Below, in pieces: positions 38,273 to 64,000 of a stretch of 64,000 nucleotides of DNA. The stretch is taken from NCBI RefSeq assembly GCF_003814815.1, contig NZ_RKQQ01000006.1:62001-126000 (forward strand), read 5' to 3'. The first letter of the stretch is position 1; each line of letters starts with the position of its first letter. A model generated the notes under the pieces. The model searched no databases, had not been told where the DNA came from, and was given only the letters and a program-made list of their open reading frames with translations. Both the position numbers and the translations under genes were made by a program. Source of the DNA: Salisediminibacterium halotolerans. GTDB lineage: Bacteria > Bacillota > Bacilli > Bacillales > Salisediminibacteriaceae.

Positions 38273-38305
38273 TCCCTGGTGTTGTCATTCACACCGGGGT
38301 TTCTT
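38273..38305 (+). terminator. Rho-independent terminator
   Basis: TCCCTGGTGT / CACACCGGGG stem (one G-T) with a short loop and TTTCTTTT. It overlaps the stop codon of the convergent KAP NTPase gene. Confidence 0.75.
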
Positions 38306-40166
38306 TTACAAACTCTTTGAATAAACGTTCGCTTTCAGAAAGTGTTCCATCCGGCTTTTGATCAATTTCAGGGTGAGCGAGAAGAATTTGATCCGTCATC
38401 AATTGGTTTAATTGATCGACTTCTTCTTTTGACATCAGCTCGGGATGATGCGTTTGTCTAACCCGGCCTTTAAATGAATTCAACCACTCAAAAGCAAATT
38501 CGAGACTGCTTGCTTCTGAAATGACTTTTGTTGCTGTTGGCAGACGCTTATTGTGATCCAGATTCTCTAAGCAGTCAGATATAAAATGAAAAGCGCCCCA
38601 ATAAGCTGTGCCAAGTTTTCGATCCGTATGTTTAGCTTTTAATACCTGACTTAAGCGTGCTAATGAAACCGGCAGTTTTTCTAACTGGTCCTGATCAAAC
38701 TTATACACTCTTCTTCTTAATTTATAAAATAATACAGAAATGTTCGATGCCGTTATTTTTTTGTCAAACCAATCTGCATACTCCCCGCCAGCAAAACTTT
38801 TTCCCATGATGTCGTTGATTAACTGATCAATCGTTAAATCAGATACGTCTCCTTCCGTGATTGCATAGGAAAAGTAGCGATCGAAGCATTCTGAAGAACA
38901 GATGCGTTTATGATCTGCCCAGCTTGTTGCTGAAGATAGGTCATACTGTTTGCTGCCGTATAATGTTTCGATTTGAGGAAATAAAGTCATTATCAGTTTT
39001 AACAGTTTTGCAGGTTCTGGCGCAGATATCTTTTTTAAATGCCCGTCTATCTTAGTTTTCCAATTCTCATTAAGTTCCGCCATATCTTTATTTGTTGTAA
39101 AGGATCCGGCAGATCCAGGAAATAAAAATTGATTCCTGTTGCTTTTAATAAAGTCATATAATTCCGGCACAAATATTCGTATCCCTTCAATCAGCATCAG
39201 GTCTCTCATATTGACGTCCTTTACGATGATCGGCGTCGAAAAGGTGAGTGTGTTTGCGTAAAGCTTTATTTGACTGGGGCTCGTTATAAACGGACTTAAA
39301 GAGTCAGTAATGTGAAAATAAAAATCATCTGCGTCCGCTGCAGGTAAGTTAATATCGAAAAACGTCAACAATTCATCTATTTCATCAAGAAGATATTGGT
39401 GTAAATCATGCTCAATGACTTTTGGTAATTCCAACGGAACCTGGATGATTTTATCGATAAACGTTTCTCCTGAGAGAGAGTCCGTATGCCCGAACTTATC
39501 CGCTAACGCGCTTGTAACGATTTGTTTATCATATGCCAAAATATAAGCGGTGTATTTAAAGTCAGCTGTCAGTCTCACGAGCCGAAAAACGGCATGGATT
39601 TCATTTTTTTCTAAGCGGTCAATATCATCGATTAAAACGACCACCCTTATTTTCTCTTCCTCTAATAAATGCTCTACTTTATCGCGAACTTCCTCAAGTT
39701 CTTTCTTGGGAAAAAGCAGTTTCGTTCCTGACATGATCACGTTCCCGAATGCTCCTGCCGCAGGCTGAAGTTTTTCCAACGCTTTAACCAGCGGGTTGAT
39801 TTTATCTAGCATTTCTCTTATTAGATCCTTATTATCTTTAAGAGAGGCGTCGAGCGCATTTGCGAGATCATTAAAAAAGTTGGCAAGGATTTCTTCTTCA
39901 GAACCGAACCTCCAAGGATTAAACTTTAAGCGTACGATGTTAGGTTTACCGCGTAAATTCTGATTTATTAAATTTAATACGGACGTTTTACCATCCCCCC
40001 ATTCCGCATTGATACCAATCACAATACTGCTTTCGTCTTTTCTTGCGGAGATCGATTCAGCTATTCGTTTTGAAAAATCATACCTGTTAAATAAATCCTG
40101 ATGTTTGTTTCTGATTGCTGCGGTCGGTCTGCTATATGGAGCTGTTGACTTATTATATTTACTCAT
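38289..40166 (-). CDS. KAP family P-loop NTPase
   Basis: A 625-residue protein. The Walker A is INAEWGDGKTSVLNLI (about residue 50) and the Walker B is VVVLIDDIDRLEKNEI (about residue 177), both in the form typical of KAP NTPases, with a long insertion between them. In animals KAP proteins have membrane helices in this insertion; here there is only a weak hydrophobic stretch (PAAGAFGNVIMSG). Bacterial KAP NTPases are often found near defence genes and may act at the membrane or as sensors in abortive infection. AAAGGAGGG precedes the ATG. It stands alone between convergent and divergent neighbours. Confidence 0.85.
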   Translation of the reverse strand: MSKYNKSTAPYSRPTAAIRNKHQDLFNRYDFSKRIAESISARKDESSIVIGINAEWGDGKTSVLNLINQNLRGKPNIVRLKFNPWRFGSEEEILANFFNDLANALDASLKDNKDLIREMLDKINPLVKALEKLQPAAGAFGNVIMSGTKLLFPKKELEEVRDKVEHLLEEEKIRVVVLIDDIDRLEKNEIHAVFRLVRLTADFKYTAYILAYDKQIVTSALADKFGHTDSLSGETFIDKIIQVPLELPKVIEHDLHQYLLDEIDELLTFFDINLPAADADDFYFHITDSLSPFITSPSQIKLYANTLTFSTPIIVKDVNMRDLMLIEGIRIFVPELYDFIKSNRNQFLFPGSAGSFTTNKDMAELNENWKTKIDGHLKKISAPEPAKLLKLIMTLFPQIETLYGSKQYDLSSATSWADHKRICSSECFDRYFSYAITEGDVSDLTIDQLINDIMGKSFAGGEYADWFDKKITASNISVLFYKLRRRVYKFDQDQLEKLPVSLARLSQVLKAKHTDRKLGTAYWGAFHFISDCLENLDHNKRLPTATKVISEASSLEFAFEWLNSFKGRVRQTHHPELMSKEEVDQLNQLMTDQILLAHPEIDQKPDGTLSESERLFKEFVKETPV

Positions 40167-46355: not shown

Positions 46356-48506
46356 ATGATGACTGAAACAACTGCGCAAAATCCCAAAACAGAGACTGAA
46401 GTTGCTTGGTTTGTCGGGTCTCACTTCGATGGTGAGGATCAAACTGAGCGTTTCTTACAGGAAGGTATCTGGGAAAACGGCCATGATGAAAAATATCATG
46501 ATGAGGTTAAATCGATGCAACCCGGCGACAAAATCGCGATCAAATCTACATACACGAAAAGCAAAGGCTTATCGTTTGGAGACCAAAATCGCCTAGTCTC
46601 AACGATGAAAATTAAAGTCACCGGTGTAATCAAAGAAAACCCGCAAGACGGAAAAAGAGTGTTTGTCGATTGGGACGAACCTTTTTCAACTTTAAAAGAA
46701 TGGTATTTTTTCACCAATATGAAAAATGTGTGGAAGGTAACAAGAAAAAATATTGATCAACATACGTGGATGAGGAGAAATTTAATTGACTTCGCTTTTA
46801 ATCAAGAAGAACAAATGATCGAACAATTTTTAGATGAACCTTATTGGAAGTACAGGTATGAAGATCCGAACATGTTTCTTTGGACAACGTTTTATGAAGA
46901 GATGGCGAATGCGCTCTTAAGTTATAAAGACCGGCGCCAAGAACTGCTTGAAAAGATGAATACCGCCTTTGAAAAACTCGATCTACGCAATCCATTGTTA
47001 ACTCAAAATGCTGAGGGTGAGAGCGTTCTACTTGATGATATTTGCCCGTTCACATTTTATGCGTTGTTTAATAAAGGGTACACGGATGAGAACCGTATAA
47101 AAATCATTTCCGTTCTCAATGAATTTCTCGGCCTTGAGGAAACAATCCCGACACAATTCGAAGGTATTCCGGTGGTCAGTAACATGGCATCGCGTTTTTT
47201 TACTAGTGATCCCGAACCATCTGATATTGATAATCTTTGGGAAGTATTTGAATCCGCGATTTTACTTACCAAAAAAGATTCAGAAGAGAACAGAAATCAG
47301 TTTATCGAATATTTTAATCGTGTAATTACACAAAGCAGTATTAAATGGAATATCACATTCGGTTTGTATTGGATTAGACCTTGGGATTATCTGCCGCTCG
47401 ATTCTCGTACAAAAGATGCGTTAGAAAATAAACTAAAGATTGAAGTGCCAGTTCATAAAAAAAATAAAACGATTACCGGGGAGGACTATTTGCGGCTGAT
47501 CGACTTTTTGAATGATAAGTTTGAAGAAGAGGAGTTCCCGTCTGATTCTTACCCGGATCTCTCGTTTAAAGCTTGGCAAGAATCTATCGAACTGACTCAA
47601 TATCATTCGAACCTGGCTGAAGAAAAAACACCTTACGGCGACGAAGGTTCAGAAGAGATAAATTCGTATTCGAAAGAAGATTTCCTCGCCGAAGTCTTTA
47701 TTTCTGAAGCTTCGTACAATACGATCACGGCGTTACTGGATCGAAAAAAGAATTTGATATTGCAAGGCGCACCCGGTGTCGGCAAGACATTTGCGGCGAA
47801 GCGGCTCGCCTATTCACAGATGGGTGAGAAAGATGAATCGCGGATAATGATGATTCAGTTTCACCAAAGTTACGCGTACGAAGATTTTATTATGGGCTAT
47901 CGCCCGAATGAGAACGGATTTGTCTTGCAAGAGGGACCGTTTTACCAGTTTTGCAAAATGGCAGCAGATGATCCGGAGCAGAGCTATTATTTCATTATTG
48001 ATGAAATTAACCGCGGCAATTTAAGCAAGATCTTCGGTGAACTAATGATGCTGATTGAAGGCGACAAACGCGGCGACGAACTGAAGTTGACGTACACGAA
48101 CGAGCCGTTTTCTGTCCCGGAAAATGTCTATTTAATCGGAATGATGAATACCGCTGACCGCAGTTTGGCGATCATCGATTACGCCCTGCGCCGACGCTTC
48201 AGCTTTTACGAATTAGAACCGGCGTTTGAGACAGAGAGCTTTGCCAATCACTTGCGCGAACAAGGTGCCCAGGAAGAGATGATTGAAAAAATCAACTGGC
48301 GCATCGGCCGGCTGAATGAAGAAATCAGCCAAGATGTCAATCTCGGGCCAGGTTTTCGCATCGGACACAGTTACTTTACCGATTACAACGATTCCGAAGA
48401 TTGGTACGACGAGATCATTCAGTATGAAATCGCCCCCTTAATCAAGGAATATTGGTTTGATGAAGAAGAAAAAGCCGAGCAGAAAATCCAGGAACTCTTA
48501 AGGTGA
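46356..48506 (+). CDS. mcrB: McrB-like AAA+ GTPase of a type IV restriction system
   Basis: A 716-residue protein. Residues 12-115 form a small beta-rich domain (AWFVGSHFDGEDQTERFL, 'MQPGDKIAIKSTYTKS') that looks like an EVE/PUA-type modified-base reader. A helical middle region follows. The McrB AAA+ domain starts at about 465: Walker A LQGAPGVGKTFAAKRL, the McrB line FHQSYAYEDFIMGYRP, Walker B YYFIIDEINRGNLSKIFGEL (about 547) and the McrB-specific GMMNTADRSLAIIDYALRRR. It should recognise modified DNA and drive translocation with GTP. McrC follows with overlapping frames. GAAAGGACGGG fits the start. Confidence 0.9.
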   Translation: MMTETTAQNPKTETEVAWFVGSHFDGEDQTERFLQEGIWENGHDEKYHDEVKSMQPGDKIAIKSTYTKSKGLSFGDQNRLVSTMKIKVTGVIKENPQDGKRVFVDWDEPFSTLKEWYFFTNMKNVWKVTRKNIDQHTWMRRNLIDFAFNQEEQMIEQFLDEPYWKYRYEDPNMFLWTTFYEEMANALLSYKDRRQELLEKMNTAFEKLDLRNPLLTQNAEGESVLLDDICPFTFYALFNKGYTDENRIKIISVLNEFLGLEETIPTQFEGIPVVSNMASRFFTSDPEPSDIDNLWEVFESAILLTKKDSEENRNQFIEYFNRVITQSSIKWNITFGLYWIRPWDYLPLDSRTKDALENKLKIEVPVHKKNKTITGEDYLRLIDFLNDKFEEEEFPSDSYPDLSFKAWQESIELTQYHSNLAEEKTPYGDEGSEEINSYSKEDFLAEVFISEASYNTITALLDRKKNLILQGAPGVGKTFAAKRLAYSQMGEKDESRIMMIQFHQSYAYEDFIMGYRPNENGFVLQEGPFYQFCKMAADDPEQSYYFIIDEINRGNLSKIFGELMMLIEGDKRGDELKLTYTNEPFSVPENVYLIGMMNTADRSLAIIDYALRRRFSFYELEPAFETESFANHLREQGAQEEMIEKINWRIGRLNEEISQDVNLGPGFRIGHSYFTDYNDSEDWYDEIIQYEIAPLIKEYWFDEEEKAEQKIQELLR

Positions 48507-48511
48507 TCGCG

Positions 48512-49561
48512 ATGAGCCATGCTGATAAGATCCCTGTGAAAAATATTTATGCGATGCTTTGTTATGCGTGGAACGAACTCGATCAATCAGACCGCGTCTT
48601 GGCAGGCAGTGAAAAATTCGATAACATTTACAACTTATTCGCCCGTATCTATATCAACGGGACGAAAAATATTATCAAACGCGGCTTGCATCGCTATTAC
48701 ATTGAAGAACAAGCGGCCGTTTCCACGCTGAAAGGAAAAATCAATGTGACGGAATCGGTCAAACAGCGGACGCTGACGAAACGGCAAATGATCTGCGAGT
48801 ACGATGAATTCTCGGAAGACATCCTCTTAAATCAGATCGTCAAAGCGACGCTGACGCTGCTTTTAAAAACCTACGCGGTGGATGACAAGCTGAAACATCA
48901 GCTGAAAAAGCTGCGTTATGCGTTTTCTGACGTTGCAGACATCCGCCTGACGAAAACAGTCTTCACGTCGATCCGTTACAACCGAAACAATCATTATTAC
49001 CGCATGCTGCTGCACATCAGTCAGCTCATTGTCGAACGCTCGCTGACAACAGAAGAAAACCAAGCATACACCTTTTCAGACTTTGTCCGTGACGGGCAGA
49101 TGGCGAAGCTGTATGAAAAATTTATTCTGAACTTCTATCACTATCACTTAAACAAAAAGCACTATAAGGTTCATGCGCCGCAATTCAGCTGGCAGTTAGA
49201 TGAGCGAGTAAGTCTGAAAGAAGAACGCTTGCTGCCGCGGATGCAATCAGACATTGTCGTTGAAAATAAACTGACTGAGACACAGCTGATTATTGACGCA
49301 AAGTATTACGCAGAAACACTGTTGACCGGCTACCGCTCGGAAACGGAGAAGCTCCGTTCCAACCACTTGTACCAACTGCTTACCTACATGCAGCAAAGTG
49401 ATTTTCCCGGTGAAGTAAACGGAATGCTGCTCTATCCGACAATCGAGGAGGAAATCAATGCCGATTACTCACTGCGCGAGCAAACCGTCTCGATCCGAAC
49501 TTTGAATTTGAATGCGGAGTGGGACGTGATTTCGGCGCGGTTAAAAGGTTTGATCACATAA
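48512..49561 (+). CDS. mcrC: McrC-like endonuclease subunit
   Basis: A 349-residue protein. N-terminal IPVKNIYAMLCYAWNELDQ is the McrC/YjiW-family opening, and the PD-(D/E)XK nuclease site is visible as LLPRMQSDIVVENK...LIIDAKYYAETL (Asp at about 251, Asp-Ala-Lys at about 267-269). It binds the McrB hexamer, stimulates its GTPase and cuts DNA. A GTG at 48503 overlaps the mcrB stop, but AAGGTGAT is spaced for the ATG at 48512. The two genes form a complete type IV McrBC pair acting on modified (for example methylated) foreign DNA. Confidence 0.88.
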   Translation: MSHADKIPVKNIYAMLCYAWNELDQSDRVLAGSEKFDNIYNLFARIYINGTKNIIKRGLHRYYIEEQAAVSTLKGKINVTESVKQRTLTKRQMICEYDEFSEDILLNQIVKATLTLLLKTYAVDDKLKHQLKKLRYAFSDVADIRLTKTVFTSIRYNRNNHYYRMLLHISQLIVERSLTTEENQAYTFSDFVRDGQMAKLYEKFILNFYHYHLNKKHYKVHAPQFSWQLDERVSLKEERLLPRMQSDIVVENKLTETQLIIDAKYYAETLLTGYRSETEKLRSNHLYQLLTYMQQSDFPGEVNGMLLYPTIEEEINADYSLREQTVSIRTLNLNAEWDVISARLKGLIT

Positions 49562-52329: not shown

Positions 52330-53229
52330 TTATTCTTTATGAGTATATGAGATGTTAAAAGTAACATCATCGGGCCGAATAGCCTTATCAGAAGATATAG
52401 TCCAACGATTGCCTTCAATTTGTGTAATGTTTTCAGGACCATGAATAATGTAATTGAAATGAGATGGCTTTGTTTCTACTTCTCCATTTGCAGGTACATA
52501 CAATGTAATTAACTTATGACCGTAAGTAAATCTTATTACAAGTGGAAAATCTAATGCATCAGATGATTTATTTTCCCATACCTCTAGAATAACATGAGCC
52601 ATTCCTCCGCCTGGAATATATACCATATCTAAATACATCGGTAAAATAGAATTATTACCTTTCAGCCATTCATATAAATAAGTGAATTTATTTCTCATGT
52701 TTTCTTCGATAACAGAAAATCCCATGTGAACTAAAGCTTTGCAAATTCCCACAGGATTATAGGTAGGAAGATTGTTACACTTCAAAGTGTATGTTTTTGA
52801 CTGCTCATCTTCATCCAATAATTCAAAAATCTTTTCCTCTTCTTCTAAAAAAATACTTACTTGATTTGACCCAAAGTTACTGGCAATAAATGATTCATCA
52901 CCACTAGGCTTATATTTGGGAGAACCTTTTCGTGGTCTACCTCTCATAAAAATTCGTTCTAATTGAAGGTAGTTAACAAGGTCATTTTCATATTTGCTAA
53001 ATATTAGTTCATTACATTCATCACATTCATTATGATTAAAAAGACTTCTATTACCTAACGCTGCTGGTACTACGTGAGCAATTTTTCTGAAAGTAACTTC
53101 ACTAGTAACTCTATTACAAAAAATACATTGCTTATCTTCAGAATTTCCTAAAAATACTTTGGGAGGCGGTGTTCCATGTATAGGGTAAGCATATTCATAG
53201 ATTTGGTTGTATAAGAAGTTTTCGTTCAT
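52330..53229 (-). CDS. HNH endonuclease-like protein of the Gabija-type locus
   Basis: A 299-residue protein. Near the N-terminus is a treble-clef HNH-like region: CIFC, then FRKIAHVVPAALGN and CDECNELIFSKYEND, i.e. two CxxC pairs around a His, the layout of HNH_5/McrA-type nucleases. The remaining 220 residues are beta-rich and unrecognised. It is on the same strand as the GajB and GajA genes, 280 bases downstream of GajB, with the same low GC. AAAGGA precedes the ATG. It could be an accessory effector or an independent anti-phage nuclease. Confidence 0.65.
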   Translation of the reverse strand: MNENFLYNQIYEYAYPIHGTPPPKVFLGNSEDKQCIFCNRVTSEVTFRKIAHVVPAALGNRSLFNHNECDECNELIFSKYENDLVNYLQLERIFMRGRPRKGSPKYKPSGDESFIASNFGSNQVSIFLEEEEKIFELLDEDEQSKTYTLKCNNLPTYNPVGICKALVHMGFSVIEENMRNKFTYLYEWLKGNNSILPMYLDMVYIPGGGMAHVILEVWENKSSDALDFPLVIRFTYGHKLITLYVPANGEVETKPSHFNYIIHGPENITQIEGNRWTISSDKAIRPDDVTFNISYTHKE

Positions 53230-53508: not shown

Positions 53509-54576
53509 TTACCCAAGATAAATCGCGACCGAATACCTTGCTCGTGTCATAGCAACATAGAACTTAGCCAATGTTTGACCTTTTAAATCAACCGACCAAT
53601 CGTACATTTTGTTTTTCATATCTTTAGTTGGAAATATGAGGACGTGCTGCCTGGTAATCCCTTTAGCTTTTCCAAACGTTACCTGTTCTAAATAACGTGG
53701 TACTCCTAGCTTTTCTAACTTGTTTAATGTCTTAACATTATAATATAAAATTGTTGGACTATAATTTTTTGTATAGTTAAGTAACTCTTGCTGGTTATTC
53801 AATTTGACGATCCCTTCATCTTCTTGTCGCTCTCTATGAGGATCTTCTATTAATTTTAAATCATCATATAATGCATTTACAAAGTCACAGATTTCTTGGT
53901 TACACCTATAGCAAACCTCAAGTTGCTCTAAATGTTCTATTCCCATTTCTTTGATAAAAAAGTTAAATATTTTATCATTTTTATAAATAGAATGCTTTCT
54001 ACTTGTATTTGTTGAATATGTCGATTGTCTATGATCTCCCACAATAATTACATTACAAGATAAATTGTAAATATTTCTGATTATTTCTAAATCATATCCA
54101 TTTAAATCTTGCACTTCATCGATCAATACAGTACTATAAATTTTCTCAATTCTATTATAGATACGTCCGTTAATTATCTTATTGATCACATCTACGAATT
54201 GAGCTAATCTTTCGGAATACAAATGATTATTTCTATTTATATAATATCCTTTACTGTTAGAAGTAAGTCCCTTCCTTTTGGGTATTTTACTTTCAAGAGT
54301 ATCGTCTAATCCTTCTATGAGCGGCATTTTAACCATTTTTCTATAAGGCTTGGCCATCTCATTAAAAAGAAATTCTATCCATGTTCTACACTCTATACTT
54401 TCAGAAAGCCCTCCGGGTTTACTAGCTATATCGTTCTTCATAGATTTTAAATTGTTTCTCGTGTAAGTTAAGTAAAGAACCTTCCCTTCAGATTTCAAAT
54501 TTAAAGCTTCCTTTATTAATAAAGAAGTTTTTCCTGTACCAGCTCCAGCCTGAATAATTCTTTTAACGTATTGCAT
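53509..54576 (-). CDS. gajB: GajB-like UvrD/PcrA-type helicase
   Basis: A 355-residue SF1A helicase-like protein: Walker A QAGAGTGKTSLLIKEAL at the very N-terminus, Walker B VLIDEVQDLNGYDLEII, motif III VGDHRQSTYSTNTS, motif IV EVCYRCNQEICDFVN, and motif VI KFYVAMTRARYSVAIYLG, which ends the protein. The gene directly follows and overlaps the OLD-family gene, the exact arrangement of Gabija, in which GajB senses DNA ends and helps activate GajA. It is shorter than the about 490 residues usual for GajB and ends at motif VI. A TTG at 54600 could also start it; the ATG at 54576 gives a 14-base overlap. Confidence 0.75.
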   Translation of the reverse strand: MQYVKRIIQAGAGTGKTSLLIKEALNLKSEGKVLYLTYTRNNLKSMKNDIASKPGGLSESIECRTWIEFLFNEMAKPYRKMVKMPLIEGLDDTLESKIPKRKGLTSNSKGYYINRNNHLYSERLAQFVDVINKIINGRIYNRIEKIYSTVLIDEVQDLNGYDLEIIRNIYNLSCNVIIVGDHRQSTYSTNTSRKHSIYKNDKIFNFFIKEMGIEHLEQLEVCYRCNQEICDFVNALYDDLKLIEDPHRERQEDEGIVKLNNQQELLNYTKNYSPTILYYNVKTLNKLEKLGVPRYLEQVTFGKAKGITRQHVLIFPTKDMKNKMYDWSVDLKGQTLAKFYVAMTRARYSVAIYLG

Positions 54577-56203
54577 CAATAATATACTCTGGATATTCAA
54601 ATTTTTCTGTGGTGTCTAGAAAAACACTTAATGCCCAATCAGTCTTATTTGTCTCCATATATTTTTCCAACTCCTCTATAGAACTTTCACTTCTATTTAA
54701 TATATTTTTCAACTTTTCAAAGTTAGAGCCCTTATATAAAAACTGAGGTTCTAAGGTCTTTAATCTATAATTACTATCAGAACAAATATGGATAAAGGAA
54801 TGATCTTTGTAACCTTTGTACTTCTGCTCAATATTATCTTCGTAATTTCCATCATTGTCAGTGACTACAAATGTTTTTATTTCTAAAAGTATTGCAATAT
54901 CTAAAAAACGTTTAAAAGAAAGACCATTTACACTAAAAATATCTATCCCATCATCTAGTGGAACTTTACCTCCGTTGTTGTCCATATAGCATTTCGTAAC
55001 AATGAGCTCATCTGCTGGACCTTCTACTAATATAACTTTTTTAGATAAGATGAACCTTAAAGTATTATAATTAGGTAATTTTTGAAAATAACTAACTGTA
55101 TCTTCAGATAATTGATCCATTGCGCTATTCTCTGTTGAGCTAAGAAGTATGAGATTATCTAAATGTAATTTATTTAATATATAAGAATCGTGAGTAGATA
55201 CAAAAACTTGTTGACCTTCTGACAACTCAGATAAACGGGTTACTAATTGACGCATGTTTGTGAAAGACAAATGATTTTCCGGTTCTTCCATCAATAGTAT
55301 TGTTTGCTTTTCTTTTCGATTTTGAACAGCATAAATAGTTTTAAGCATATTTTGAGCACCAGTTCCGATATTTTCAAAAGGAATATTATCGATGTAAGCA
55401 TTTACAGCTGTTTCCCAACTAGTGTTTCGGCTAACATCTAAAGAGAGAGCCAACTTTTTGGGATCATCTTGACTGAATGAACCTTGTTTTTTTTCATTTA
55501 GGCTGTCATTTAACTTTATTACTTCTTCATGTCTAGAAAATTGCTCTTTATACTCTCGGTACAAAACTGCCAGATTAGCTCGTTGTTTTTTATCTAAAGT
55601 ATTATCAATAATTCCCATAAAATGCTTTTGCGGAAGATTACTAAAAGCACTTCCATTGGAATCAATTAAATACGATTTAAAAGGTATAGCTCTAGGTGTA
55701 ATAATATGACCACCAAACGTTTTCCATTCCATCATATAAAATTCAGTAGGAATTAGAGAAATTTCTTCATTTTGAATATATTCTTCATATTCGTCTTCAT
55801 ATTTTTTGTCGAACTCTATATTAAAACTAAGACCTATACAATCTTTACTTTCCATGTTTTCAGAGCCTCTAAATTTATTTAAATCTTGATCGGTAGTATT
55901 AGTTAAATATAACTCAATATGTATACTAGGTGGAGAAGGCGGAACATGCTCTAATTGATCTTCTCTACACTTTTGAGCATTACCTATAAAATCATTTGTT
56001 ATACACTTATTAAAAAAAAAAGGATTGATTTCCTGATAAACAGGACGGTTTCTAATAACTCCTGTTAAAGCTAAATGAATGGCTTCAAATATCGTGGACT
56101 TACCAGTACCGTTATCTCCGATTAAGATATTCATGTCTTCTTTTACATGTAAATCTAAATATTGAAAGTGCTTGTAGTTCTTAATAATTATTCTTTCTAT
56201 CAT
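54563..56203 (-). CDS. gajA: GajA-like OLD-family nuclease (ABC ATPase plus TOPRIM)
   Basis: A 546-residue OLD endonuclease. The ABC ATPase half has Walker A ILIGDNGTGKSTIFEAIHLA (about residue 28), Walker B TILLMEEPENHLSF (about 300) and the H-loop FVSTHDSYILNKL. The TOPRIM half has KVILVEGPADELIVTK (catalytic Glu, about 385) and FVVTDNDGN (DxD, about 440). In Gabija, GajA nicks phage DNA when nucleotide pools fall. RBS GGAGAG lies nine bases before the ATG and just after the stop of a broken upstream gene. Low GC compared with the host genes indicates transfer. Confidence 0.8.
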   Translation of the reverse strand: MIERIIIKNYKHFQYLDLHVKEDMNILIGDNGTGKSTIFEAIHLALTGVIRNRPVYQEINPFFFNKCITNDFIGNAQKCREDQLEHVPPSPPSIHIELYLTNTTDQDLNKFRGSENMESKDCIGLSFNIEFDKKYEDEYEEYIQNEEISLIPTEFYMMEWKTFGGHIITPRAIPFKSYLIDSNGSAFSNLPQKHFMGIIDNTLDKKQRANLAVLYREYKEQFSRHEEVIKLNDSLNEKKQGSFSQDDPKKLALSLDVSRNTSWETAVNAYIDNIPFENIGTGAQNMLKTIYAVQNRKEKQTILLMEEPENHLSFTNMRQLVTRLSELSEGQQVFVSTHDSYILNKLHLDNLILLSSTENSAMDQLSEDTVSYFQKLPNYNTLRFILSKKVILVEGPADELIVTKCYMDNNGGKVPLDDGIDIFSVNGLSFKRFLDIAILLEIKTFVVTDNDGNYEDNIEQKYKGYKDHSFIHICSDSNYRLKTLEPQFLYKGSNFEKLKNILNRSESSIEELEKYMETNKTDWALSVFLDTTEKFEYPEYIIDAIR

Positions 56204-59584: not shown

Positions 59585-59621
59585 GTCCGTGTAGGTGTCC
59601 GTGCCTATACGGACTTTTTTA
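59585..59621 (+). terminator. Rho-independent terminator
   Basis: GTCCGTGTAGG / CCTATACGGAC stem (one mismatch) with an eight-base loop and six Ts. Confidence 0.85.
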
Positions 59622-59787: not shown

Positions 59788-61731
59788 ATGATTGTGTATG
59801 AAGCGACAAAATCAGACTTTTTAGAAGATGTATTTAAAGATGAACTTGTGCAAAACATCTGTGATAATTATGAGTCGAAAGTGGGCAGAATTAACCAAAG
59901 TGAAGTTCGCTCATGGGATAACTCGATGCAGTATATGTACCGGGTGTTGTCCGATAATGACATTCCGAGTGATGCCGGTGTCGCGATCGAGTTTAAAATC
60001 CCGTATACGTCCAAGCGTGTTGATCTGCTTATCTCCGGTTATGAAGAAGAAAGCGGTGCGGTAGTCGTTGTTGAACTTAAGCAGTGGGATAAGGTAGAGA
60101 AAATTGATAATAAAGAAGCGATTGTCAAGACGGCCTTCAAAAACGGATTAACAGAAACAACGCATCCGTCCTATCAAGCATGGTCTTATGCGGCGCTGAT
60201 TGAAGATTACAATGAAAATGCGCAGAAAGAGAACTTGCAGCTGTATCCTTGCGCTTATTTACATAACTATCTGCATCAAAAAGAAGCAGACCCTTTAACA
60301 GATCCGATTTATGAGTTTTATATTGAGCAAGCCCCAGTGTTTTTAAAAGGAGATGCACCGAACCTGCGCGATTTTATCAAGCGCCATATCCAAACAGGGG
60401 ATCAAAAGAAAAATCTCTATCAAATTGAAAAAGGCAAAATCCGTCCGTCCAAATCGTTGCAAGATTCCTTGAACAATATGCTGAAGGGCAACCGGGAGTT
60501 TGTCATGATCGATGAACAGAAAGTTGTTTTTGAGAGTGCTCTTCAGCTCGCGAATCAGGCTTTACGGACAAAAACGAAAGAAGTGTTGGTGATTGAAGGC
60601 GGGCCAGGGACAGGCAAATCGGTCTTGGCGATCAACCTTCTCGTAGAAATGACGAACCGCGGTCTCGTCAGTCAATATGTCACAAAAAACGCAGCCCCGA
60701 GAAATATATATTCAACAAAACTGAAACAGGATTTTCGAAAAGGGCATATCGATAACTTATTTAAAGGATCTGGTTCTTACGTTGATGCACCGAGAGACGA
60801 ATTCGATTGCTTAATTGTTGATGAGGCGCACCGTTTAAATGAGAAGTCCGGGCTGTTTTCGCACTTAGGCGAAAACCAAACAAAGGAAATTATGGCCTCG
60901 TCCAAACTCGCGATTTACTTTATCGATGAGCGTCAGCGCGTTACGTTGAAAGACGCGGGAAGCATGAATGAAATTCAGCGTTTTGCAGAAGCAGAAGGCG
61001 CTAATCTAACAACGATGAAACTCGAATCCCAGTTTCGTTGCAACGGTTCGGATGGATTCTTGGCATGGGTAGATGACGTTTTGCAGATTAGAGAAACCGC
61101 GAACACGCATGATATGGGTGCTTCTTACGATTTTAGAGTGTACGGCGATCCAAATGAATTGAAAAACGATATTATGAAACTGAACGAAAATAACAATAAA
61201 GCGCGCATGCTTGCGGGCTACTGCTGGAACTGGGATAAAGAAGGAAAAGCCGATTCGGATTACCACGATGTAGTGCTTGAAGATTTCGGTTTTGCGATGA
61301 GCTGGAACCTCGGGAATACAGATACTTGGGCCATCGATCAAGACTCAGTCAATGAAATCGGCTGTATCCATACAGCTCAAGGACTTGAGTTTGATTATGT
61401 CGGGGTGATTATCGGCGACGACCTTATTTACCGCTACGGTGAAGTGATCACAGATTCGACTAAACGCGCGAAAACAGATAACTCCTTGCGCGGAATCAAA
61501 AAAATGCAAAAAGAAGATCCGGAAAAGGCTGCCCAACTTGCGGATGAAATTATCCGAAACACGTATCGAACGCTCCTCACGAGAGGACAAAAAGGATGCT
61601 TTATTTACTGTACAGATAAAGACCTTGAGAACTACTTCCGGGAGCGACTGGAAAAAGTATCACAGGATTATGAAGAAAATGAGTTTTTTAAGCCAATGAT
61701 GGAAGTGGCGGAAAAAAAGCAAAGGTATTGA
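59788..61731 (+). CDS. DUF2075 helicase with N-terminal PD-(D/E)XK-like nuclease
   Basis: A 647-residue two-part protein. Residues 60-100 carry a nuclease-like core: RVDLLISGYEEESG followed by VVVVELKQWDK (D...ExK). The SF1-type helicase part has Walker A VIEGGPGTGKSVLAINLL (about 270), Walker B CLIVDEAHRLNEK (about 342), the Gln/Arg motif IDERQRVTLKD and a late 'TAQGLEFDYVGVIIGDDLIYR' line, then 'NTYRTLLTRGQKGCFIYC', as in DUF2075/Schlafen group 3-like helicases. A frame seven codons longer begins at 59767, but the family usually begins at MIVYEATK. It belongs to a group often found in defence islands. The next gene follows after 35 bases. Confidence 0.8.
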   Translation: MIVYEATKSDFLEDVFKDELVQNICDNYESKVGRINQSEVRSWDNSMQYMYRVLSDNDIPSDAGVAIEFKIPYTSKRVDLLISGYEEESGAVVVVELKQWDKVEKIDNKEAIVKTAFKNGLTETTHPSYQAWSYAALIEDYNENAQKENLQLYPCAYLHNYLHQKEADPLTDPIYEFYIEQAPVFLKGDAPNLRDFIKRHIQTGDQKKNLYQIEKGKIRPSKSLQDSLNNMLKGNREFVMIDEQKVVFESALQLANQALRTKTKEVLVIEGGPGTGKSVLAINLLVEMTNRGLVSQYVTKNAAPRNIYSTKLKQDFRKGHIDNLFKGSGSYVDAPRDEFDCLIVDEAHRLNEKSGLFSHLGENQTKEIMASSKLAIYFIDERQRVTLKDAGSMNEIQRFAEAEGANLTTMKLESQFRCNGSDGFLAWVDDVLQIRETANTHDMGASYDFRVYGDPNELKNDIMKLNENNNKARMLAGYCWNWDKEGKADSDYHDVVLEDFGFAMSWNLGNTDTWAIDQDSVNEIGCIHTAQGLEFDYVGVIIGDDLIYRYGEVITDSTKRAKTDNSLRGIKKMQKEDPEKAAQLADEIIRNTYRTLLTRGQKGCFIYCTDKDLENYFRERLEKVSQDYEENEFFKPMMEVAEKKQRY

Positions 61732-61766
61732 AGGATTTTTTGAAGAGGATTTTAAGGGGGACTTTT

Positions 61767-62690
61767 ATGAAAGTTGCTGCTATTGATTTTGAGACCGCAA
61801 ACGAGAACAGAAATAGTATCTGTGCTGTTGGGATAGCAGCTGTAAATTTGTTTACAGGTGAGAAAAAAGATTATTATTCTTTAATTAAACCAAAAGGTAA
61901 TTATTTTGCCAATTATAATTCTATGATTCACGGGATCACTGAAAATGATGTTGAAAATGCTCCGTCTTTTGATGAAGTATGGCTAGATATCCTTCCGGAA
62001 ATTTCAGATCATTTGATTATTGCTCATAATGCAAGCTTTGATATTAGCTGTTTGAGAAAAACCTTGGATTTGTACAACCTTACATATCCTAGCTTGCAAT
62101 ATAACTGCACACGGAATATTGCTAAAAAGCATTGGCCGGGCTTGAGTTCGTATAAACTTTCTGTTGTAGCTGATTATCTTGATTTTCAGTTCGAACACCA
62201 TCATGCTCTTGAAGATGCAAGAGCTTCGGTTTACATTTTTGAGAAAGTAGTTAATGATCTTGGTGTTCACAGTCCTGAAGAATTATCTGAGAAGCTAAAT
62301 ATGGTACAGGGTTCACTTTATAAAGATGGTTATGAACCAGCAAGAATAAATAAAAGATACCGTAATTCTTTTTCAGAAGATTATTCACTCCTTCAAGCTG
62401 AAAATAATGAGTTTGACAGCAGTCATCCTTTTTATAATTCGCACGTGACATTTACAGGTACGTTAGAGTCGATGACAAGAAAAGAAGCAGCCCAAAATAT
62501 TGTTAATCTAGGCGGTCATTTTGAGAAGGGTGTGACCAAGAATACCAACTTTTTGATTTTAGGTGATCAAGATTTTAATAGGTTTGCCAATGGCAAAAAA
62601 AGCAGCAAATTATTAAAAGCAGAAAGCAATATTGCACAAGGTCAAAATTTAGAGATTATGCCAGAACAAGACTTTATAGAACTTTTATAA
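61767..62690 (+). CDS. DnaQ-like DEDDh 3'-5' exonuclease with C-terminal BRCT domain
   Basis: A 307-residue protein. Residues 3-165 are a DEDDh exonuclease: motif I AAIDFETANENRNS, motif II HNASFDISCLRKTL, motif III HHALEDARASVYIFEK. A linker of about 60 residues leads to a BRCT domain (about 225-305) with VTFTGTLESMTRKEAAQN, a conserved Gly-Gly pair in LGGHFEKGVTKNTNFLI and a Lys at SSKLLKAE. BRCT-exonuclease fusions occur in Firmicutes as stand-alone epsilon-like repair nucleases. AAGGGGGA fits the ATG at 61767. GC is much lower than in the helicase gene upstream, so the two may have different origins despite the 35-base gap. Confidence 0.85.
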   Translation: MKVAAIDFETANENRNSICAVGIAAVNLFTGEKKDYYSLIKPKGNYFANYNSMIHGITENDVENAPSFDEVWLDILPEISDHLIIAHNASFDISCLRKTLDLYNLTYPSLQYNCTRNIAKKHWPGLSSYKLSVVADYLDFQFEHHHALEDARASVYIFEKVVNDLGVHSPEELSEKLNMVQGSLYKDGYEPARINKRYRNSFSEDYSLLQAENNEFDSSHPFYNSHVTFTGTLESMTRKEAAQNIVNLGGHFEKGVTKNTNFLILGDQDFNRFANGKKSSKLLKAESNIAQGQNLEIMPEQDFIELL

Positions 62691-62856
62691 CTATAGATTC
62701 TCAAAAATTAATTCCGATTTGAACTTATTAATTAGTGAAAAAAGTATATTAGACGAGTCAAATTTATAAGTGGTTTTCTGATTTCAAGTAGCACAGATTT
62801 CTGTTGTCTTAATGATAATTGTTAATTCTTTAGCAAGTGGAAAATTTAATTTTGGA

Positions 62857-64000
62857 ATGAAGGTGAAATTTATTACTGTAAATAATTTGGGGTCAGAAGA
62901 TAATAATAAAATAATTGAGCATTTTTTCAAATTTGGTTATTTTAATGAGCAACTTCCTCAATGCTTTGATAGTAATGATTTATATATTAATTTCGAAAAA
63001 ATTAAAAGCTTTAATGATAAGAAGAATCCTTCTGAACCAGCCACCTTAACTGTTGCTAAGAATGAGAATGCTAGAAGAGAAATAAAAGTTCCGAACCCAA
63101 TACATCAAACCAAATTATTCAACATCTTGATCGATAATATTGTTGATATTAAAGAGAAAATTGATTTAGGTAACCGGACTTTATCTAACCCTTTTATTGA
63201 AAAAGATTTTTATGAAGAAATAATGTTAGATATACCTTTCAAAAATCGAAGAAGCACATTTAGATTTAACTTATACAAAAAAATGAATAGTTCAATGGGA
63301 TATCGCTATATTTACAAATTAGATTTAGCAAATTTCTATGACTCAATTTACACTCACGCTATCGAGTGGGCAATTGTAGGGAAAGAAGTTGCAAAAAATA
63401 AGGATGGCAATAAAGCTAATAAATTAGGTGAACAATTAGATAAAGGTGTTAGAAATACAAACTCTAGAGAAACATCTGGTATCCCTACTGGACCTTTTAG
63501 TTCACGTATCCTCTCAGAATTAATATTAATTTCAATTGATGAAGAGTTGCTTCAGCTAAAAACTGAAAGTGGAATAGATTTTGAATTTCTTCACTATAAT
63601 GATGATTATGAATTTTATTTTAAAACGGAATTAGATTACTTGAAAATTATAAGTTTAATTAAATCCGTTTTCACTAAATATAGATTGAAAATTAATGAAT
63701 CGAAATGTGAATTTCTTGAATATCCCTATCACAACAATATAGATATGAAAGAAGAATATGAATTTTATTTAAAAAAATATAAAGATTCAAATGATAATTA
63801 TCAGAAGACAGATATTATTGTTCGGCTGTTTTTTAAGGCTGATGAATTTTACAAACAGGGATATAAAGGTGCCTATAAGTATTTATATAAGGTTATTAAA
63901 GGCTATGATTTAAGCGTTGTATGGGGAGCTGTTGAACCGTTCTTTTTAGGACATATTTTAATCAAACCCGACCTTACCAAATATATATCAGAAATTATAT
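62857..64000 (+). CDS. Reverse transcriptase of the UG/Abi type (partial, runs off the end)
   Basis: An open frame continues to the last base; 381 residues are visible. It has the RT motifs: motif A KLDLANFYDSIYTHAIEWAI (Asp about residue 156), the GIPTGPFSSRILSELIL line, and motif C HYNDDYEFYF with the catalytic Asp pair (about 249-250). The upstream lines LPQCFDSNDLYINF and RREIKVPNPIHQ and the SIYTHAIEWA form of motif A are those of unknown-group/abortive-infection RTs (DRT class), not of group II introns or retrons. An earlier in-frame ATG at 62812 lacks a ribosome site; neither start is well supported. Very AT-rich. The C-terminus, which would decide the subtype, is outside. Confidence 0.8.
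   Translation, partial: MKVKFITVNNLGSEDNNKIIEHFFKFGYFNEQLPQCFDSNDLYINFEKIKSFNDKKNPSEPATLTVAKNENARREIKVPNPIHQTKLFNILIDNIVDIKEKIDLGNRTLSNPFIEKDFYEEIMLDIPFKNRRSTFRFNLYKKMNSSMGYRYIYKLDLANFYDSIYTHAIEWAIVGKEVAKNKDGNKANKLGEQLDKGVRNTNSRETSGIPTGPFSSRILSELILISIDEELLQLKTESGIDFEFLHYNDDYEFYFKTELDYLKIISLIKSVFTKYRLKINESKCEFLEYPYHNNIDMKEEYEFYLKKYKDSNDNYQKTDIIVRLFFKADEFYKQGYKGAYKYLYKVIKGYDLSVVWGAVEPFFLGHILIKPDLTKYISEII

Follow-up and report, generated by a model that had tools for sequence, protein, structure and literature searches.

A UG30 reverse transcriptase, a DUF2075 helicase, and a DEDDh-BRCT exonuclease as neighbors in a defense-rich region of Salisediminibacterium halotolerans

Results

Gene arrangement at the locus

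The window, namely the whole stretch of 64,000 nucleotides analyzed here, covers positions 62001–126000 of contig C6 in a genome of 2.84 Mb (11 contigs). At its end, a helicase, an exonuclease, and a reverse transcriptase (RT) gene are arranged in this order, head to tail and all on the + strand of the ORF list. The helicase gene is positioned at 59788–61731, and the exonuclease gene (61767–62690) starts after a gap of 35 bases. The RT gene is cut by the window edge at 64000. In the same contig it continues to position 64434 (window-equivalent numbering), giving a complete protein of 540 residues from the ATG at 62812, 121 bases behind the exonuclease gene. An earlier note on this DNA described three same-direction genes with their catalytic motifs, and the ORFs, motifs, and profile matches confirm the description. 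The gap of 166 bases given there for the RT fits an alternative start at ATG 62857 (525 residues), though the same ORF also offers ATG 62812.

No terminator-like site is found in either intergenic gap of the trio. A shared transcript across the three genes is possible, since they read in the same direction with short gaps free of such sites. A terminator-like hairpin is located upstream of the helicase gene, on the 3′ side of an aldehyde dehydrogenase gene (approximately 59587–59614, to within a base or two, + strand; 7586–7615 in L002). This hairpin is suggestive only, since 7 terminator-like sites were found against 4.8 expected in shuffles; one of the sites sits within the exonuclease gene. 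The earlier note regarded a transposon end between the genes as evidence against a single system. The search for transposon ends and flanking repeats gave only short two- or three-copy matches resembling chance, and no transposon end was found between the trio genes.

A gene for a PC4-type ssDNA-binding protein (71 residues; Pfam PC4, E 2e-13), which we take to be YdbC, lies about 150 bases downstream of the RT gene (64585–64800 window-equivalent; L002:12586–12801). It is followed by a PDC-S11 candidate nuclease gene (64901–65899 window-equivalent; PADLOC, E 1.5e-36) and a gene presumably encoding MsrAB. On the other side of the trio, an overlapping Gabija pair (GajA, E 7e-177; GajB, E 2e-86), with an HNH_5 gene downstream, is found on the − strand (53509–56203 and 52330–53229), together with a pair of McrB-like AAA and McrC genes (46356–49561, +; Pfam AAA_5 and McrBC) and a KAP NTPase gene with a PADLOC PifA match (38289–40166, −; E 7e-77). 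Housekeeping genes are interspersed among these defense genes. The region is thus a defense-rich chromosomal one, containing Gabija, McrBC, a KAP/PifA-like protein, and the PDC-S11 nuclease. An HNH_5 protein (E 3e-8) encoded downstream of the Gabija pair weakly resembles PtuB.

The comparison with empty sites set no boundaries for the island. The flanking genes are present in 11 (aldehyde dehydrogenase) and 25 (MsrAB) of 35 genomes of the family, and none of the eight stretches around them contains both genes together or any gene of the island.

The GC3 values across the locus should be noted. The value is 0.63 in the aldehyde dehydrogenase gene, decreases through the helicase (0.45) and exonuclease (0.26) genes to 0.21 in the RT gene, and is 0.64, 0.56, and 0.61 in the PC4-type, PDC-S11, and MsrAB genes, respectively. 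These steps fit a stepwise assembly of the trio. For the RT the argument is weak, since UG30 genes in other genomes are also GC-poor (0.23–0.30, lower than their flanks) and the local Gabija genes are equally low (0.21–0.27).

Assignment of the RT to UG30

The matches of all three proteins to their profiles are far beyond chance. The RT matches the PADLOC profile RT_UG30 (PDLC03769) over profile positions 6–492 of 493 (E 8.4e-189, 626 bits), followed by Drt6 (E 4e-91, 304 bits), Drt4 (E 4e-80), and AbiK (E 6e-55). RVT_1 of Pfam is also matched (E 1.4e-12). The earlier note called for such a profile search of what it took to be a UG/Abi-type RT, and the result bears out that type. The protein is 45–53% identical to four other members of the group, and we assign it by this full-length match to UG30 of the Class 1 UG/Abi RTs. 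Membership in DRT4 or DRT6, which are profile groups apart from UG30, was considered and rejected: the Drt6 score is far below that of UG30, and the NCBIfam Drt4 profile gives 166 bits against a cut-off of 450.

The motifs LDLANFYD and YNDD are present. The catalytic box reads HYNDDYEF, whereas four relatives have H(Y/F)VDDYEF and a fifth (L037) also has V at this position, so that Asn as the x of YxDD appears unusual within the set. The C-terminus also differs: several relatives end in FY, whereas tyrosine is missing from the final 25 residues of the window RT.

A profile built from five UG30 proteins matches the solved chains of DRT6 (9wy8, E 1e-37), DRT4/UG15 (E 4e-30), and AbiK; the names of chains 9wy8 and 9vdo are those given by the structure search (Foldseek). 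The homology of the RT to DRT6, DRT4, and AbiK appears to be full-length, including the C-terminal helical part. An AlphaFold2 model of the Tuberibacillus relative is of moderate confidence (mean pLDDT 67.9, pTM 0.44). Beyond residue 288 it is entirely helical, and this part matches DRT6, DRT4, and AbiK within that confidence. Foldseek ranks DRT4/UG15 first, then DRT6 and AbiK, with TM-scores of only 0.37–0.40. VIA-align ranks DRT6 at the top (Z 12.0, rmsd 7.9, 323 aligned residues), followed by DRT4 (10.8) and AbiK (10.6), the last being more distant than the other two also by profile score. However, a group II intron RT reaches Z 10.3 on 109 residues and other RTs reach 8.6–9.9. The fold therefore adds little to the sequence evidence.

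The earlier note also suggested looking for an ncRNA beside the RT. The Rfam scan near the RT gene gave no match, and no conserved block was found in the UG30 flanks (six downstream and six upstream loci aligned), the sequences being few and diverged. Our literature search on UG30, RT, and defense found no functional test of UG30.

UG30 relatives in other genomes

A query of genome contigs with the single RT returned nothing, while an alignment query returned 10 loci, five of UG30 (L122–L126) and five more distant. Four of the former are from the same genomes as L034–L037 and were counted once. With L132 from viral contigs and L158 and L159 from a class-wide search, eight UG30 relatives were obtained. 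RT_UG30 is the first PADLOC profile in seven of the eight (L134 standing for L158), and L159 was included as a sister of L158 from the same genus. Matches in plasmid (199) and phage (5) records are all partial, none reaching 80% query cover. Within the order sample of 299 genomes, the present one included, three genomes besides this one carry a full-length UG30 RT, and one more has a broken copy.

The RT gene of Tuberibacillus (L125) is located 73 bases after a gene that we take to be a type I restriction subunit, and that of Fervidibacillus (L037/L124) a few kb from another presumed one. The frame is broken in two of the eight relatives, Fervidibacillus L124 and Lysinibacillus macroides L126. 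In the latter, the methylase and PglZ genes of a BREX operon flank the RT gene; BrxB, BrxC domains, the methylase, PglZ, and BrxL are recognized there by Pfam. The words "reverse transcriptase" do not appear in the main text of a BREX survey (PMC12839542).

The helicase and the exonuclease

The helicase is of the PD-(D/E)XK-SLFN-g3 (DUF2075) type (Pfam SLFN-g3_helicase, E 2e-103). Its ORF extends upstream to 59767, but the start common to its relatives (MIVYEATK), which are annotated as "DUF2075 domain-containing protein," is at 59788, as stated in the earlier note. The D-(x)n-ELK nuclease signature, Walker A GGPGTGKS, and Walker B IVDEAH can be read directly. PADLOC gives matches to PDC-S41 (E 4e-17) and AbiO (E 1e-16); the PDC-S41 candidate profile covers only part of the protein and ties it to neither the exonuclease nor the RT. 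Similarity at the DNA level to two relatives stops at the gene. In a genome of the same family, the stretch of 78.5% identity comprises the gene plus the 55 bases upstream of its ORF and goes no further. Viral contigs gave no helicase match, with exact peptide patterns only. The helicase is a candidate for a separate defense gene.

The exonuclease (307 residues) is a DEDDh 3′–5′ exonuclease with a C-terminal BRCT domain (RNase_T, E 1.5e-21; BRCT, E 2.4e-7), positioned behind the helicase as the earlier note described. The DEDDh residues are present in IDFETA, AHNASFD, and HHALEDA, and the ATG at 61767 is preceded by the ribosome site AAGGGGGA. The score against NCBIfam PRK06195 (285 bits) is under the cut-off of 373. 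The match to the PADLOC candidate PDC-S48 (E 7e-31) covers part of the protein, and this profile ties it to neither the helicase nor the RT.

Relatives of the exonuclease are found in 29 plasmid and 25 phage records and at four loci in viral contigs. The gene is a mobile one of phages, satellite phages, and plasmids, probably acquired on its own. In 3 of 18 other genomes with both genes, the exonuclease is within 1 kb of a PC4/YdbC gene (59–759 bases). This proximity is treated as a lineage effect, since all three genomes are from one family. Some relatives of the exonuclease (L116, L160–L162) adjoin genes that are presumably repressors or ImmA-like. Five relatives (L116, L156, L160, L161, and L162) are in temperate-phage-like or satellite regions, some near an annotated integrase.

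Co-occurrence of the three genes

We examined co-occurrence in the 299 genomes of the order and in the neighborhoods of the RT, exonuclease, and helicase relatives. Neither the exonuclease profile nor the helicase is found near any of the eight UG30 relatives, within flanks of up to 8 kb, some of which are cut by contig ends (only 111 bases on one side of L123 and about 1.2 kb in L122). Likewise, no RT profile match or helicase is found in the 42 loci (39 distinct) of the exonuclease relatives, of which 29 have flanks of about 1.5 kb and 13 have flanks of up to 5–8 kb; known RTs were used to check the RT profile. The 17 larger helicase loci contain no relative of the exonuclease or RT.

In the order sample, 80 genomes have a helicase relative, 71 an exonuclease relative, and 25 both. 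The thresholds here are loose, and many of the 80 match the helicase domain only (25–32% identity) while many of the 71 have shorter proteins matching the exonuclease domain only. The two genes are within 10 kb of each other in 1 of the 25 genomes, the present one. At E 1e-20, relatives of neither the helicase nor the exonuclease are found anywhere in the four other UG30 genomes of the sample. A composite system, as raised in the earlier note, is not supported, as the association does not recur in these genomes and loci, an outcome that the note itself named as refuting it. The trio are most likely neighbors in a defense-rich region, not one system, and adjacent by chance.

Discussion

The locus is best explained as three independent genes lying head to tail in a defense-rich region, namely a Class 1 UG30 RT, a separate helicase, and a mobile exonuclease. 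We give this explanation a probability of about three in four. The common direction, the short gaps, and the lack of terminator-like sites in them speak against it, as does the small number of UG30 relatives, several with short flanks, and for the RT the base composition is weak evidence. The earlier note offered two readings of the island, of which the single anti-phage system of all three genes is extremely improbable: order and orientation favor it, but no search of the order genomes or of the three neighborhoods gave a second instance. Its gene identities and its defense-rich setting are right, and its other reading, that two modules met in an island, agrees with the explanation preferred here in seeing separate modules. 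The split into the helicase on one side and the exonuclease with the RT on the other is not supported, since the latter pair, whose conservation the note proposed to check, is found nowhere else among the UG30 and exonuclease loci.

The exonuclease and RT could nevertheless form a two-gene unit, in which a built-in DEDDh 3′–5′ restrainer digests RT-made ssDNA in uninfected cells, a restraint that would be removed by ssDNA-binding proteins or nuclease inhibitors of the phage. The genes are adjacent on the same strand with no terminator-like site between them. Precedents are found in other DRTs, as summarized in the cited sources: host ExoI keeps the DRT9 product from building up too early and RecBCD holds DRT3 in check (PMC13174585), and the ssDNA of DRT4 is cleared by exonucleases until ORF55 protects it (PMC13213688, PMC13314766). 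Trimming of the RT product by the exonuclease is mechanistically attractive, its support being this adjacency and these precedents. However, the precedent nucleases are host enzymes encoded elsewhere, so that no partner gene is needed, and the absence of such a neighbor from all UG30 relatives and of an RT from all exonuclease loci makes the unit unlikely. A DRT with its own safety device, in which the template-free UG30 polymerase is co-transcribed with a dedicated exonuclease that clears its ssDNA from healthy cells and a PC4-type protein perhaps protects or delivers the product, is quite unlikely. Such an encoded restraint, if true, would be a new variant, as DRT3, DRT4, and DRT9 reportedly borrow host exonucleases. 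That the helicase and exonuclease form one DNA-degrading defense module, with the RT unrelated, is very doubtful. The gap between them is short, and in two Hymenobacter plasmids (L149 and L150) a related exonuclease is located 117 bases downstream of a helicase, albeit a different, 3-kb DEAD/DEAH one. A third Hymenobacter plasmid (L157) has a WYL-domain gene in that place, the relatives are not within 10 kb in any of the 24 other genomes with both, and GC3 differs between the two genes (0.45 versus 0.26). Adjacency in a defense-rich region should therefore not be taken as one system in annotation.

As one of three independent genes, the RT would be expected from its homology to act like DRT4 and DRT6. 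Class 1 UG RTs studied to date synthesize DNA without a nucleic-acid template, sometimes in a protein-primed manner, as outlined in PMC13174585. In reviews, DRT4 is described as producing random ssDNA that is cleared by exonucleases until it is shielded by ORF55 of the phage, a protein reported to activate DRT6 too (PMC13213688; PMC13314766). By analogy, the UG30 RT may need no partner and act as an oligomeric DNA polymerase independent of a template; host exonucleases would keep its ssDNA low. A phage factor would then stabilize the ssDNA, and the resulting growth arrest would block the phage. The priming tyrosine of DRT3b is C-terminal (PMC13174585). If the present RT is protein-primed, another residue must serve, since its last 25 residues lack tyrosine. 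The RT group is already catalogued and closely related to DRT4 and DRT6, and a member with the unusual YNDD box could help to show what determines the product and its toxicity.

The helicase relatives suggest another pair. In 10 of the best 30 helicase loci, with the present locus included, a pyrophosphohydrolase (MazG-like or related) gene lies within 1.5 kb of the helicase gene, at 7–137 bases in eight loci and at 214 and 923 bases in the other two. In one of the 10 the two genes are encoded on opposite strands, and two of the pyrophosphohydrolases belong to a second, related family; at the present locus, no MazG-like pyrophosphohydrolase gene is found beside the helicase. The literature search returned nothing on DUF2075 with phage defense or with a pyrophosphohydrolase. 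We regard the DUF2075/SLFN-g3 helicase (relatives L042–L071, L154, and L155) and the pyrophosphohydrolase as a candidate two-gene defense module, better supported than the trio as a pair to test. The pyrophosphohydrolase is also near two of the three plasmid helicase relatives viewed.
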